Shown in pieces: positions 22,169 through 27,797 of a stretch of 64,000 nt of DNA. The notes beneath the pieces are model-generated. The model was not told the DNA's origin. It ran no database searches and worked only from the letters and a program-made list of their open reading frames with translations. Each line of letters begins with the position of its first letter. Positions within the stretch are counted from its first letter, which is position 1. The stretch lies in contig JACOEM010000001.1 of the NCBI GenBank assembly GCA_024998565.1, positions 642,485-706,484 of the forward strand, in the 5' to 3' direction. Made by a program: the position numbers and the translations under genes. This DNA comes from Nitrospira sp. GTDB lineage: Bacteria > Nitrospirota > Nitrospiria > Nitrospirales > Nitrospiraceae.

Positions 22169-23422
22169 GTGTATCGCAAGATCGTTCTCGATAACCGGTT
22201 GCGCATTGTGGCCGAGCTGTTGCCGACGTTGAAGTCCGTCACGATCGGTATATGGGTCAACGTCGGATCGCGCGATGAGCAACCGGGGGAAGAGGGGCTG
22301 TCTCACTTCCTGGAACATATGTTTTTCAAGGGAACGCGCAGCCGCACGGCGACGCAGATTTCCCGCGAGATCGATGCGCTGGGGGGTGAGATGAATGCGT
22401 TCACCACCCGAGAAACGACGACCTTTTACGTGAAGGTGCTGGATCAACAGTTGGAGGCAGCGTTGGAGCTGCTCTCGGATCTGTTCTATCGGTCCCGGTT
22501 TGAGTCGAAAGAGGTCGAAAAAGAAAAGCAGGTGGTGCTCGAAGAGATCAGGATGGTTCAGGATGATCCGGAGGATCTGGTTCAAGAGCTTCACATGAAG
22601 CATACGCTGGGAAGCCATCCCTTGGGCCGGCCGATCCTGGGGCAGGCACCGAGAATTCAAGCTCTGGGACGGAACGATCTGGTGTCGTACGTTGGTTCGC
22701 ACTACGATCCGGAGCGCACGGTCGTTGCGGTGGCCGGCAACTTTACCTGGCGCCGTTTAGAGCAGTTGTTGGCGCGGTATTTTTCCGACTCCCACAAAGG
22801 TGTGGCCGCCCAGCCAAGCCGTCGTCCGCCTGAGGTGAAAGGTGGGGTGCTGGTTAAGCGCAAAGCTCTTGAGCAGGTCCATCTGTGCTTGGGCCTTCAG
22901 GGTCTGAGTGCCGGGCATAAGGATCGATATGCGGCGCATGCGCTCAACGGGGTGTTGGGCGGGAGTGTGAGTTCGCGCCTCTTTCAGGAGGTGCGGGAAA
23001 AGCGTGGGCTCGTGTACTCGATCTATTCGTTCTTGTCCACCTATTCCGATGGCGGAATGACCACGGTGTATGCGGGTACGCGCCCGAAAGAGGTTGAGCG
23101 TGTCGTGGAAGTTGTCTGCCGGGAGTTGAAGAAGCTCCGGACCCATGGAATCGATGCGAAAGATTTAGCCCGGGTCAAAAATCAAATGAAGGGCAGTCTG
23201 ATGCTCAGCCTGGAGAGTTCGCACAGCCGCATGAGCAAGTTGGCAAAGGACGAATTGACGCAGGGCAATCACGTGTCGCTCGAGCAGATGATTGCGGAAA
23301 TCGATCGTGTGACCACCGATCAAGTGTATCGGGTGGCGCAAACGTTACTCGATCAGCGCTGTCTTTCAATTACCGCACTTGGCCCGATTCCGACGAAGAG
23401 TCTGCAGTCGTTTGCGTCATAA
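22169..23422 (+). CDS. M16 family zinc peptidase
   Basis: This is a 417-residue protein with the inverted zinc-binding motif HFLEH (His46, Glu49, His50) and the downstream glutamate region (ETTTFYVKVLDQQLEAALELLSDL). The second half has the usual RxxxY-type motif of the family (GGSVSSRLFQEVREKRGLVYSIYS). It resembles the processing-peptidase-like proteins that follow pnp in many bacteria (PqqL/MPP type). It has no signal peptide and the length is typical for a single M16 polypeptide. The start is GTG at 22169, six bases after pnp, so it is in the same operon. Substrates are unknown. Confidence 0.92.
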   Translation: MYRKIVLDNRLRIVAELLPTLKSVTIGIWVNVGSRDEQPGEEGLSHFLEHMFFKGTRSRTATQISREIDALGGEMNAFTTRETTTFYVKVLDQQLEAALELLSDLFYRSRFESKEVEKEKQVVLEEIRMVQDDPEDLVQELHMKHTLGSHPLGRPILGQAPRIQALGRNDLVSYVGSHYDPERTVVAVAGNFTWRRLEQLLARYFSDSHKGVAAQPSRRPPEVKGGVLVKRKALEQVHLCLGLQGLSAGHKDRYAAHALNGVLGGSVSSRLFQEVREKRGLVYSIYSFLSTYSDGGMTTVYAGTRPKEVERVVEVVCRELKKLRTHGIDAKDLARVKNQMKGSLMLSLESSHSRMSKLAKDELTQGNHVSLEQMIAEIDRVTTDQVYRVAQTLLDQRCLSITALGPIPTKSLQSFAS

Positions 23423-23795
23423 CCGGTCAGGTGCGGGGTATCTGTAGGCGGGTGCACGCGCTGGTCAAGCCGTGAATTGCGGTGATTTGAGCGCGATCAC
23501 AGGGCTAACTAGTTGAAACGCCGCTTAATTTCAAGTGGTAATGATGGTTGGATTTCGGTAAAACATTTTCTTGACACGTTTGGTGGATTTAAGTACCATG
23601 GCCGCGTTTTCATCATATAAGTCTGAATTTATTTCGGCTGCATTACAGGGGAAGGTAAGCAGAGAGAAAGGGGGTGTGCGTCGCACTTCCTCCTCCTAGC
23701 GCGTTCTCTGGATTTTTGTTTTTTTCTGAACTCTTTTTTTGGATACTGTGATTCAACGGTTCTCTGGTCATCATTTTTCCAAGGAGGGTAGGGTT
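23423..23795 (+). promoter_or_regulatory. 373-base intergenic region with promoter and long leader
   Basis: This gap has no convincing coding sequence. It contains the inverted repeat TTGAAA...TTTCAA at 23513-23534 (10-base spacer), the promoter at 23571-23599 and a leader of nearly 190 bases. The end of the leader has two T-tracts (about 23712-23738) and a strong ribosome binding site. No hairpin precedes the T-tracts, so they are not a classical terminator. Confidence 0.5.
23571..23599 (+). promoter_or_regulatory. Sigma-70 promoter of the secreted two-gene unit
   Basis: TTGACA (perfect -35 box, 23571-23576) is followed by a 17-base spacer and TACCAT (23594-23599, four of six). Transcription would start near 23606 and give a leader of about 190 bases. 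Confidence 0.6.
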
Positions 23796-24308
23796 ATGAA
23801 TAGGGTCGGAATTCTAGCCGCACTTGCAGTCTCCTCCGTTGTCGGCTTGTTGACCGCCGGTGTTACGTTGGCGGCCGATGCTCCAGCCGGGGGCGGACCG
23901 AGCGAAGTCACCACGGGCAGCGGAAAGTTTTTTAAGGGTGAGCCCACCAATACTTTGAAAGGTCGGGTGTGGTCGCAATGGGCAGACAATCCTGATACCG
24001 AATTGCTCTTCGGCATCCAGTACTGGAATACTGGTGATCCAGCTTCTGGTGAGGGCGGTGGCCGCTCTTCAACGCAAATGGACGTCAAGCCGCCGGATCC
24101 TTTGTTTACCTGCTGCGGCTGGGGATTCACCGGTGGTACGGACAAGAACAATCCTTACGCCGGCTGGTATCATGCAGCGACCACAGTCCGTTTGTCTGTG
24201 AAGGATAAGAGTTTGATGGATCAAATCATCAAGGCATCGCAGGAACTCGTCGCGATGGAAGTGACCCTTGACGGTCGGACCATTACCGGATTTAAGGTCT
24301 TGAAATAG
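23796..24308 (+). CDS. Secreted protein of unknown function A
   Basis: This is a 170-residue exported protein. Residues 1-27 are a signal peptide ending in LAADAPAGG. The mature part begins with a glycine-rich stretch and then has LKGRVWSQWADNPDTELLFGIQYWN, a proline-rich patch and a FTCCGWGFTGGTDKNNPY segment with two adjacent cysteines. The strongly preferred start at 23796 has aaggaggg upstream. I recognise no family. The following gene shares the LxGRV opening after its signal peptide and a similar strand-rich composition, so the two may be partners. The strong promoter and ribosome binding site suggest an abundant periplasmic or surface protein. Confidence 0.7.
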   Translation: MNRVGILAALAVSSVVGLLTAGVTLAADAPAGGGPSEVTTGSGKFFKGEPTNTLKGRVWSQWADNPDTELLFGIQYWNTGDPASGEGGGRSSTQMDVKPPDPLFTCCGWGFTGGTDKNNPYAGWYHAATTVRLSVKDKSLMDQIIKASQELVAMEVTLDGRTITGFKVLK

Positions 24309-24368
24309 AATTTATACGCGAGGCGACATTCTTGAGACATTTTTGTCTTCTTTAAGGAGGATGTGATT

Positions 24369-25043
24369 ATGAAGCTTCAAAAGCAGGGGTGGACCTTTAT
24401 GGCTGCCGTGGCTTTGGTGGTAGGATTTACCTCCACTGCGCTGGCCATTGAGGCGTTCCAGGAACGATTCGAGTGGGGAGATCTGAGCAAGCCCACCACG
24501 CTGCAGGGGCGTGTCATCATTCTTGATCCGTACGATGAAGCGGTCTGGCTCAACATCGCTGTGTTCGGCGGCAACGCCGAGAGCGGTCTGTGGTGGCAGA
24601 GAGTGCACCCAGGCAAGAACCTCAAATTTTATCCGGCTGACAAGAATGTGTGGGAACAGTTGAAGTCCATGGCGCGTGCGCATTCCGGGCCGGCTGCAGC
24701 GAAGGAAGTTCCTCCTGGATCCCCGACCACTCTCGTGGAATTTGTGGCCCAGGAAGTCGAGCAGAATCGCCGCGTGATTTCATCGGTCAAGAAGTTGCCC
24801 GAGAATGCCGGCGAAATGGGTAAGCCAAAGAGCATCTCGTCCCTTCGTTTGAAGGAATGTGAAGGGAAGACGGAAGTGGATGCTCCTTGCCACGCCGCGA
24901 AGACGCTGCTGAACACGTCCCCGAAGTCTCCTGATGGAGATAAGGTATTGATGCAGTATGATGTGTTATTGCCCAATGGCAAGCCGCTTGCCAACCTGAT
25001 TCCCTGGACAGCGAAGTACAATCAGGGTGGTGGACATCACTGA
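24369..25043 (+). CDS. Secreted protein of unknown function B
   Basis: This is a 224-residue protein with a signal peptide (residues 1-26, ending STALAIEA). Next come FEWGDLSKPTTLQGRVIILDPYDEAVWLN and FGGNAESGLWWQRVHPGKNLKFYP. The middle is rich in lysine and glutamate. A cysteine pair (LKECEGKTEVDAPCHAA) could form a disulfide. The C-terminus is GGGHH, which may bind a metal. The ATG at 24369 follows aaggaggatg by five bases. It is the second gene of a two-gene unit and is followed by a strong terminator. Its family is not recognised. Confidence 0.7.
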   Translation: MKLQKQGWTFMAAVALVVGFTSTALAIEAFQERFEWGDLSKPTTLQGRVIILDPYDEAVWLNIAVFGGNAESGLWWQRVHPGKNLKFYPADKNVWEQLKSMARAHSGPAAAKEVPPGSPTTLVEFVAQEVEQNRRVISSVKKLPENAGEMGKPKSISSLRLKECEGKTEVDAPCHAAKTLLNTSPKSPDGDKVLMQYDVLLPNGKPLANLIPWTAKYNQGGGHH

Positions 25044-25072
25044 GTAGTAAAAGGCCATTGGCCTGAAGTGAG

Positions 25073-25107
25073 AAGGCGGCATTCCGGAAGGGATGCCGCC
25101 TTTTTAT
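25073..25107 (+). terminator. Rho-independent terminator after secreted protein B
   Basis: The stem aaggcggcat (25073-25082) pairs with atgccgcctt (25093-25102), followed by tttttattt. It closes the two-gene secreted unit and lies just before the convergent mutS gene. Confidence 0.9.
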
Positions 25108-25148
25108 TTGGGATATCAAAGGAAGAACGGTCTAAGCCGCGGGAAAGA

Positions 25149-27797
25149 CTATTCCTTCAGCAGCCGTTGTTGCAGCTCAGCGAGCCGATTGAGTGCATCA
25201 AGGGGGGTCATGGAGAAGAGATCCATTTGGCGAACCTCCTCAAGCATAGGATGAGGCGCCGGGAGCGTGGCATCAAATTGAAGCGACTGCTGGTTCTCCT
25301 GCACTGGCCGTCCGGATGACGAAGAGGACTCAAGTTGAGCAAGGACGGTCTTGGCCCTATGTATCACCTGTTCAGGAAGACCTGCCAGTTGAGCAACATG
25401 GATTCCATAGCTGCGATCGGCGCCTCCACGAATAATCTTACGCAGAAATAGTACCTTCCCATCACGCTCCTGAACTGCAACGCAATAGTTCGTGATCCCT
25501 TCTCGTAGACTCTCCAATTGGGTCATTTCGTGATAATGGGTCGCGAAGAGCGTGCGCGCGCCGAGACGCTGAGGATCCTGGATGTATTCTGCAATTGCCC
25601 AGGCAATGCTCAGCCCGTCGTAGGTGCTCGTGCCGCGTCCGATTTCATCCAGGAGGATCAAGCTGCGAGGTGTGGCGCAGTTGAGGATATGGGCTGATTC
25701 CGTCATCTCAACCATGAAGGTACTCTGGCCACCTGCGAGGTTGTCGGAGGCGCCGACTCTGGTGAAAATGCGATCAGTCAGTCCGATGTGGGCTTCCGTG
25801 GCGGGGACAAAGCTCCCCATCTGCGCCATCAAGGCAATCAGAGCGACCTGTCTGAGGTAGGTGCTCTTCCCGGCCATGTTGGGGCCGGTCAGAATGTGCA
25901 GCCGGCTGGTAGCCAGATCCAGATGGGTATCGTTCGGGATAAATCCACCGGAAAGTTCAAGGCGTTCGACGACCGGGTGTCGTCCTTGAATAATATGAAG
26001 TCCATCACCTTCGTCGACGGTTGGTCGCGCGTAGCGATTGAGCGCGGCGGTTTCCGCGAGGGCGGCGATTACATCAAGGGTGGCCAATCGGCGGCTGATC
26101 TCCTGAAGACGGGATGTTTCCGCAGCGAGTCGTGTCCGGATTTGTTCGAACAGTGCTTGCTCCAGGGCGGTCAGTTTTGTGTCGGCTCCCGTGACCCGCT
26201 CTTCGAGTTCCTTCAACTCGGCAGTCATGAAGCGCTCGGCATTGACCAGAGTTTGCTTGCGGATGTAGTCGGGCGGTACGTTCCCGAGATTGGCCTTTGT
26301 GACTTCTATATAGTACCCAAAGACTTGGTTGTATCTGATTTTAAGCGACTCAACGCCGGTCCGTTCACGCTCTTTGGCTTCCAGGCCGGCAATCCAGCCT
26401 TTGCCCTCCCGGCTTGCCTTTCGAAGCTCATCGACCTCGGGGTGGAAGCCGCTCTTCAGGATGCTGCCGTCGCGAATTGATACGGGCGCCTCCTGTTCAA
26501 TGGCTCCTTCGATCAATTCGTAGAGATCCTGAGCGTTGTCCCATGACGACCTCAGGTCGGCGATGAGTGGAGAATCGAGCGCGGATAATTCGGACTGAAT
26601 GGCGGGGAGCGAAGAGACCGAAATCTTCAGCGCGAGGACGTCTCGCGGATTGGCAACTCCGAGGGACATGCGGCTACAGAGACGGGAAATGTCCTGGACG
26701 GTTCGCAAGGCTGTTCGGAGGCGAACTCGTGCGTCGATCTGTCGTTTGAGTTCGTCAACTGCTGTCAGTCGGACCTCGATTGCCGAACTGTTGACCAATG
26801 GCCGCAGGAGCCACTCACGGAGCAACCGGCTTCCCATGGCGGTGACGGTACGATCCAGAACGCCCAATAATGTATAGGCGGACTGGTTCGACGATTCTTC
26901 CGCGCGACCGGCAGGCCTGACGAGTTCCAGGTTACGGATGGTGACGCTGTCCAGGTGCATGGCGTCACGATCCTGTCTCACGCGTGGCGGACGGATATGG
27001 TCGAGCGGAGCCGACGGTTGGGTCTCCCTGACGTAGCGCAACACCGCTGCCCCGGCCTGAATGCCCAGTGTGAGGAGGTGGCAGCCGAAGGCTTCCAGGG
27101 AATGTACGTGAAACTGTTCCTGTAACGCGATGCGACCTTGCTCCTGGTCGAACCAGGTTGCAGGTTGCGTGCAGCATCGGGGACCGGTCAGATCGGCAGT
27201 CCACTGTAGTTTGCCCGGGGAGAGATCCTCTGGAAACAGCAATTCTTTCGGTTCAAGGCGCGCCAGTTCGTCCCGCAACGCGGCCTCTGCTTGTGGCCCA
27301 TGAAACTCACTGAGCCAGTAGTCTCCCGTTGAGACTTCAAGCGTAGCAAGGCCGTAGGAACATTCTTTGAGTCCAGTCCCTGCGGAACGAAGGCGCACGG
27401 ATACCGCGGCCAGCACGTTGGATTCCGTGGAGGGAAGGAATTCGCTGTCGATGAGTGTGCCGGGGGTATAGAGCCGGACGACCTCCCTGCGTACCAGACC
27501 CTTGGCGAGTTTGGGATCTTCGACCTGCTCGCACAGGGCGACGGTTCGTCCCGCACGGAGGAGTTTCGCGATGTAATTGGTGGCGGCGTGATAGGGGACA
27601 CCGCAGAGCGGGATGGGGGTCTCGCTGGATTTATCGCGAGATGTCAGCGCAATGGAGAGAAGCTTGCTCGCCTCCACCGCGTCTTCCTGGAACATTTCAT
27701 AGAAATCGCCGACACGGAAAAAGAGGATGGCATCGCGATAGGCCTGCTTGATGTCGCGGTATTGCCGCATCAATGGTGTGCCGTCGGCGTCACCCAT
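25149..27797 (-). CDS. mutS: DNA mismatch repair protein MutS
   Basis: This 882-residue protein recognises mismatches and small loops and recruits MutL. It starts MGDADGTPLMRQYRDIKQAYRDAILFFRVGDFYEMF, where FRVGDFYE is the mismatch-binding domain with its phenylalanine and glutamate. The ATPase is near the C-terminus: Walker A GPNMAGKST at residues 638-646, then TRVGASDNLAGGQSTFMVEMTE, DEIGRGTSTYDG and ATHYHEM. A C-terminal dimerisation helix follows. It overlaps the LapA-like gene upstream by eight bases, so translation is coupled. Confidence 0.97.
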   Translation of the reverse strand: MGDADGTPLMRQYRDIKQAYRDAILFFRVGDFYEMFQEDAVEASKLLSIALTSRDKSSETPIPLCGVPYHAATNYIAKLLRAGRTVALCEQVEDPKLAKGLVRREVVRLYTPGTLIDSEFLPSTESNVLAAVSVRLRSAGTGLKECSYGLATLEVSTGDYWLSEFHGPQAEAALRDELARLEPKELLFPEDLSPGKLQWTADLTGPRCCTQPATWFDQEQGRIALQEQFHVHSLEAFGCHLLTLGIQAGAAVLRYVRETQPSAPLDHIRPPRVRQDRDAMHLDSVTIRNLELVRPAGRAEESSNQSAYTLLGVLDRTVTAMGSRLLREWLLRPLVNSSAIEVRLTAVDELKRQIDARVRLRTALRTVQDISRLCSRMSLGVANPRDVLALKISVSSLPAIQSELSALDSPLIADLRSSWDNAQDLYELIEGAIEQEAPVSIRDGSILKSGFHPEVDELRKASREGKGWIAGLEAKERERTGVESLKIRYNQVFGYYIEVTKANLGNVPPDYIRKQTLVNAERFMTAELKELEERVTGADTKLTALEQALFEQIRTRLAAETSRLQEISRRLATLDVIAALAETAALNRYARPTVDEGDGLHIIQGRHPVVERLELSGGFIPNDTHLDLATSRLHILTGPNMAGKSTYLRQVALIALMAQMGSFVPATEAHIGLTDRIFTRVGASDNLAGGQSTFMVEMTESAHILNCATPRSLILLDEIGRGTSTYDGLSIAWAIAEYIQDPQRLGARTLFATHYHEMTQLESLREGITNYCVAVQERDGKVLFLRKIIRGGADRSYGIHVAQLAGLPEQVIHRAKTVLAQLESSSSSGRPVQENQQSLQFDATLPAPHPMLEEVRQMDLFSMTPLDALNRLAELQQRLLKE

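Follow-up and report, generated by a model that had tools for sequence, protein, structure and literature searches.

Organization of the locus

The window, i.e. the whole 64,000-nt stretch of Nitrospira DNA that was analysed, contains two adjacent forward-strand genes, here called A and B, which form a compact two-gene unit bounded by a -35/-10 promoter on the 5' side and a hairpin terminator on the 3' side. Gene A (23796-24308, +) encodes a protein of 170 amino acids and gene B (24369-25043, +) one of 224 amino acids; each open reading frame starts with a Sec-type signal peptide, read by eye, and each product is predicted to contain an OB-fold, which in B would span approximately residues 40 to 144. 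The two genes are 60 nt apart, and AAGGAGG precedes the ATG of both (at 24354-24360, +, in the case of gene B). They are flanked upstream by an M16-type peptidase gene (22169-23422, +), with pnp further upstream, and downstream by the convergent mutS gene (25149-27797, -), all three in conserved synteny with the pair.

The promoter (23571-23599, +) consists of TTGACA, a 17-nt spacer and TACCAT, and with a consensus score of 10/12 it is the best of the region. Of 94 distinct sequences lying 5' of gene A, 94% contain TTGACA-N17/18-TA...T, compared with 0.3% of mononucleotide shuffles, and these two boxes are also kept in the second and third families of the order. Conservation across the order extends to AAACATTT, directly upstream of the promoter, and to TTnAGTACnAT around the -10 box. 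At five loci (L046, L047, L071, L094 and L098), a second promoter-like TTGACA site lies about 50 nt 5' of the conserved one, which suggests tandem promoters. At the other end of the unit, between the convergent genes B and mutS, folding revealed a hairpin terminator with a U-tract, shared by both genes, that a simple scan had missed (25066-25109); it has 20 pairs and a GGAA loop, and the region 25040-25112 folds at -39.9 kcal/mol (z -6.8). The good promoter, the strong ribosome binding sites of both genes, the strong terminator and the leader of nearly 190 bases described in an earlier, sequence-only reading of the window were thus all recovered.

The 5' leader, whose start is inferred from the promoter, covers about 190 nt (approximately 23606-23795, +). 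A leader of this size in the window's genus would leave room for an RNA switch controlling the operon. The same reading had taken the features of the unit to suggest high and regulated expression; regulation by way of the leader was not supported. The distance from the -35 box to the start of gene A varies widely, being mostly 185 to 247 nt and about 110 nt in some genera; in some other genera the leader is shorter than 80 nt, and the leaders of relatives do not align with one another. The leader of the window folds no better than its shuffles (z -1.2) and matches no Rfam family, and no conserved RNA structure of the riboswitch kind was found in it. Control by a leader switch is therefore highly improbable and largely refuted, and the promoter is more likely to be constitutive or under global regulation.

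Distribution and conservation of the gene pair

Neither A nor B matched any family in Pfam, NCBIfam, PHROGs or PADLOC; comparison with PDB sequences returned only noise, and some 30 diverse relatives of each protein gave only scattered noise against Pfam, which upholds the initial view that the proteins belong to no known family. The Nitrospira of the window lies near Ca. N. defluvii, with 96% (B) and 97.6% (A) identity; the search that gave the match of B found none but close relatives. Within the host family, B is present in 168 of 175 genomes, representing all 22 genera, and in 113 of the 114 with a completeness of ≥90% and a contamination of ≤5%. Of 295 genomes sampled from the phylum, 96 contain B and 95 contain A, every one of them belonging to three families of one order; both are absent from the 15 genomes of other families of the same class among those listed, as well as from the rest of the phylum sample. 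The pair is single-copy, A and B are adjacent wherever both were found, and pnp, the M16 peptidase gene, A, B and convergent mutS follow one another in this order at nearly all loci of sufficient length. Given this confinement to three families of one order, the constant adjacency and the fixed gene order, the simplest view of the pair is that of a signature passed on by vertical descent within the order Nitrospirales, a range wider than the single lineage to which it had been thought perhaps specific. What is new here is an undescribed, order-specific and single-copy adjacent pair at a fixed locus, the layout itself being ordinary. In one draft genome, gene A (L048:722-1120) appears to be frameshifted after residue 131, probably through a sequence error.

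Since dS was near saturation, only dN values were compared, against a genome taken, by inference, as that of N. moscoviensis, whose five nxrB copies are placed as the published tag numbers would lead one to expect. A (0.16) and B (0.19) evolve more slowly than MutS (0.29) and the M16 peptidase (0.28) and faster than Pnp (0.11); for exported proteins they are under strong constraint, and strong purifying selection acts on this gene pair, which is nearly universal in the order. The same genome was used to compare the pair with NITMOv2_2496, which ranks with the most abundant transcripts of N. moscoviensis and encodes an exported protein without assigned function (PMC6606698). The two were found to be distinct, A and B lying near 4,216 kb, which interpolates to a tag of about 4470, and tag 2496 being expected at about 2,356 kb; because the reported protein is another locus, its top-level expression lends no support to a link of the pair with nitrite. 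A search of the literature for locus tags near A and B found nothing, and codon bias was discarded as a proxy for expression, as the ribosomal proteins of this genome do not rise above background.

Conserved blocks and short relatives of B

In protein A, the conserved blocks are LKGRVWSQWADNPDGELLFGIQYWN, PPDPLFTCCAWGF and GWYHAATTVRLAVKDKALMDQIIKASQELVAMEVTLDGRTITGFK, together with an insert, PDPLFxCCxWGF, between predicted strands 2 and 3; its aromatic-rich conserved stretches are W59/W62/W77, CCxWGF and GWY. Protein B has a strongly conserved mature N terminus, IEAFQERFEWGD, directly past the signal peptide, followed by LQGRVIILDPYDEAVWLN, then by EQNxRVISSVKKL and finally by a variable C-terminal tail; IEAFQERFEWGD and DPYDEAVW are its aromatic-rich conserved stretches. 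The LxGRV motif said to be shared by both proteins was located at L54-V58 in A and L45-V49 in B, where it plausibly forms the first strand of the predicted OB-fold in each case. The terminal GGGHH ascribed to B is indeed present in the protein of the window; it is not a conserved feature, as the tail varies and is absent from many relatives, and metal binding by these C-terminal histidines, for which tests had been suggested, was accordingly rejected. Elsewhere, CC-x-W-G of A is kept in two of the three families with the pair, its CC being lost in the third, while His126 of A and the two cysteines of B are lost in the second family, so that no cysteine or histidine can be a universal ligand.

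Three Nitrospirales genomes contain short exported relatives of the OB domain of B, none of which matches a Pfam family. Two of them, of about 125 amino acids (L114:4419-4799, - and L116:4339-4716, -), adjoin an ABC-F type ATPase gene, and the third (L115:4347-4844, +) adjoins a D-Ala-D-Ala carboxypeptidase-like gene. They share with B the core GRV-x3-D-x-Y-D-E-A-x-W (looser in L115) and the strand order, and match its profile with E-values of about 1e-5 to 1e-7; unlike B, they consist of one domain and have no A partner. No such relative was detected in the window's own genome.

Predicted fold and comparison with CusF and SilF

The AlphaFold models of the two proteins are weak overall (mean pLDDT 50 and 56), the strands and the helix being their better parts. 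Both show strands 1-2-3, a helix and strands 4-5, which is the OB order, and on the strength of these better-modelled strands A and B are probably, albeit with low confidence, small beta-barrels of the OB-fold type. Foldseek gave no match with E < 0.001 against the PDB; with Foldseek and VIA-align combined, the SilF barrel ranked first for each model independently. The score of B against SilF (Z 9.4, rmsd 2.1 over 73 residues) stands above those of the other OB domains ranked beneath it, and that of A (Z 7.3, rmsd 2.5 over 76 residues) falls within the range of common arrangements. As putative five-stranded barrels predicted to be exported, both have SilF/CusF as their top match, the models being of low confidence and export being read from the signal peptides. 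A profile-profile comparison of A with B by hhalign was not significant (probability about 4%) and gave no indication of paralogy at the sequence level; for this reason, kinship of A with B is suggested by the predicted fold only.

CusF and SilF are periplasmic Ag(I)/Cu(I) chaperones, and A and B would resemble them as small periplasmic OB-fold barrels. They differ in showing 10-12% identity, in matching no CusF/SilF Pfam profile and in having long inserts and a tail added. The metal ligands of SilF are His63, Trp71, Met74 and Met76 (PMC10656224). No such His-Trp-Met-Met set for Cu(I)/Ag(I) was found in A or B, and the counterparts of the ligand strand, assigned by eye from the strand order, are TTVRL in A and NLKFY in B, both devoid of methionine. 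As these ligands are lacking, we do not file A and B as members of the CusF family; the pair may possibly work like CusF through other ligands.

Co-occurrence with nitrite oxidoreductase

For the occurrence of nitrite oxidoreductase (NXR), real NxrB and NxrA sequences were used, TIGR03478 having been discarded as too distant a marker. High-stringency NxrB matches were confined to this order, save for a single fragment from another part of the phylum. NxrA was looked for in twelve genomes of the order, almost all of them lacking such an NxrB match, and 11 were positive, many with fragments cut at contig ends (G115, G127, G141, G254 and G268 being examples of matches that break off there), as expected for repeated genes; where a Nitrospira draft seems to lack nxr, this is often due to its assembly. 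As far as draft genomes allow, the distributions of A/B and of NxrA/NxrB coincide, all within one clade, and because there is a single clade, a functional link and common descent are inseparable.

Functional interpretation

The reading that best accounts for the whole, and to which we give roughly an even chance of being right, is that of a two-gene operon for an exported OB-fold pair which would serve the Nitrospirales cell envelope as a non-enzymatic module for binding or assembly. A and B, co-encoded in one operon, would be exported by the Sec route to the periplasm, each built on an OB-fold barrel with strands 1-2-3, a helix and strands 4-5; there they would act together as non-enzymatic partners, probably as a heteromer in which they bind each other, and their aromatic-rich conserved stretches would hold a partner or ligand. 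The most interesting candidate client, though an unlikely one, would be the periplasmic nitrite-oxidising respiratory system shared by the order. OB-folds frequently bind sugars or peptides, and this, along with order-wide core presence, predicted export and slow evolution, would also fit structural or peptidoglycan/polysaccharide-binding envelope proteins with no link to nitrite. We consider this alternative rather unlikely, though ahead of the other rivals, as no known envelope domain was detected in the pair and a LysM-chain match reached an E-value of only 0.1.

A more specific proposal, which we regard as unlikely, is that the nitrite-oxidising system of Nitrospira includes A and B as dedicated periplasmic parts, so far undescribed, which would be involved in assembly, anchoring or electron hand-over of nitrite oxidoreductase. 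They might be accessory to this periplasmic enzyme, help to assemble it or form small non-haem subunits of it, in a part like that of NXR-T (Kustd1705), the tubule-inducing subunit of the anammox nitrite oxidoreductase, which is a monohaem cytochrome c with its gene in the nxr cluster (PMC8387239). A and B are unrelated to NXR-T, and the analogy would extend to the possible role only, namely that of a small partner exported by organisms with an enzyme of this type; in contrast to NXR-T, both lack a haem motif and are encoded away from the nxr genes. The proposal draws on the shared order and largely shared genomes, on the apparent NxrA losses being mostly contig-end fragments and on the predicted export of both proteins, but the association is completely confounded with phylogeny. 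Less probable still is a copper/silver chaperone pair of the CusF/SilF kind, which would supply or protect periplasmic copper and respiratory enzymes, with the vicinal cysteines of A as its site. The best structural match of both models and the retention of CC-x-W-G in two families would speak for it, whereas the methionine-free strands at the SilF site, the family-wise losses of cysteines and His126 described above and the lack of cus/sil-type genes among the immediate neighbours speak against it.

Among nitrite oxidisers, Nitrospira are the most widespread (PMC8115632). The build of their periplasmic respiratory system is poorly known, and the pair provides a short list of two candidate genes; a role in nitrite oxidation, if true, would explain its retention by the whole order. 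The pair is also a genomic marker for the entire order, including the divergent third family. In this family (G282, the most divergent genome with A and B; loci L117 and L134), the pair occurs together with a full-length NxrA of only 72% identity, and the family is possibly a deep-branching nitrite oxidiser.
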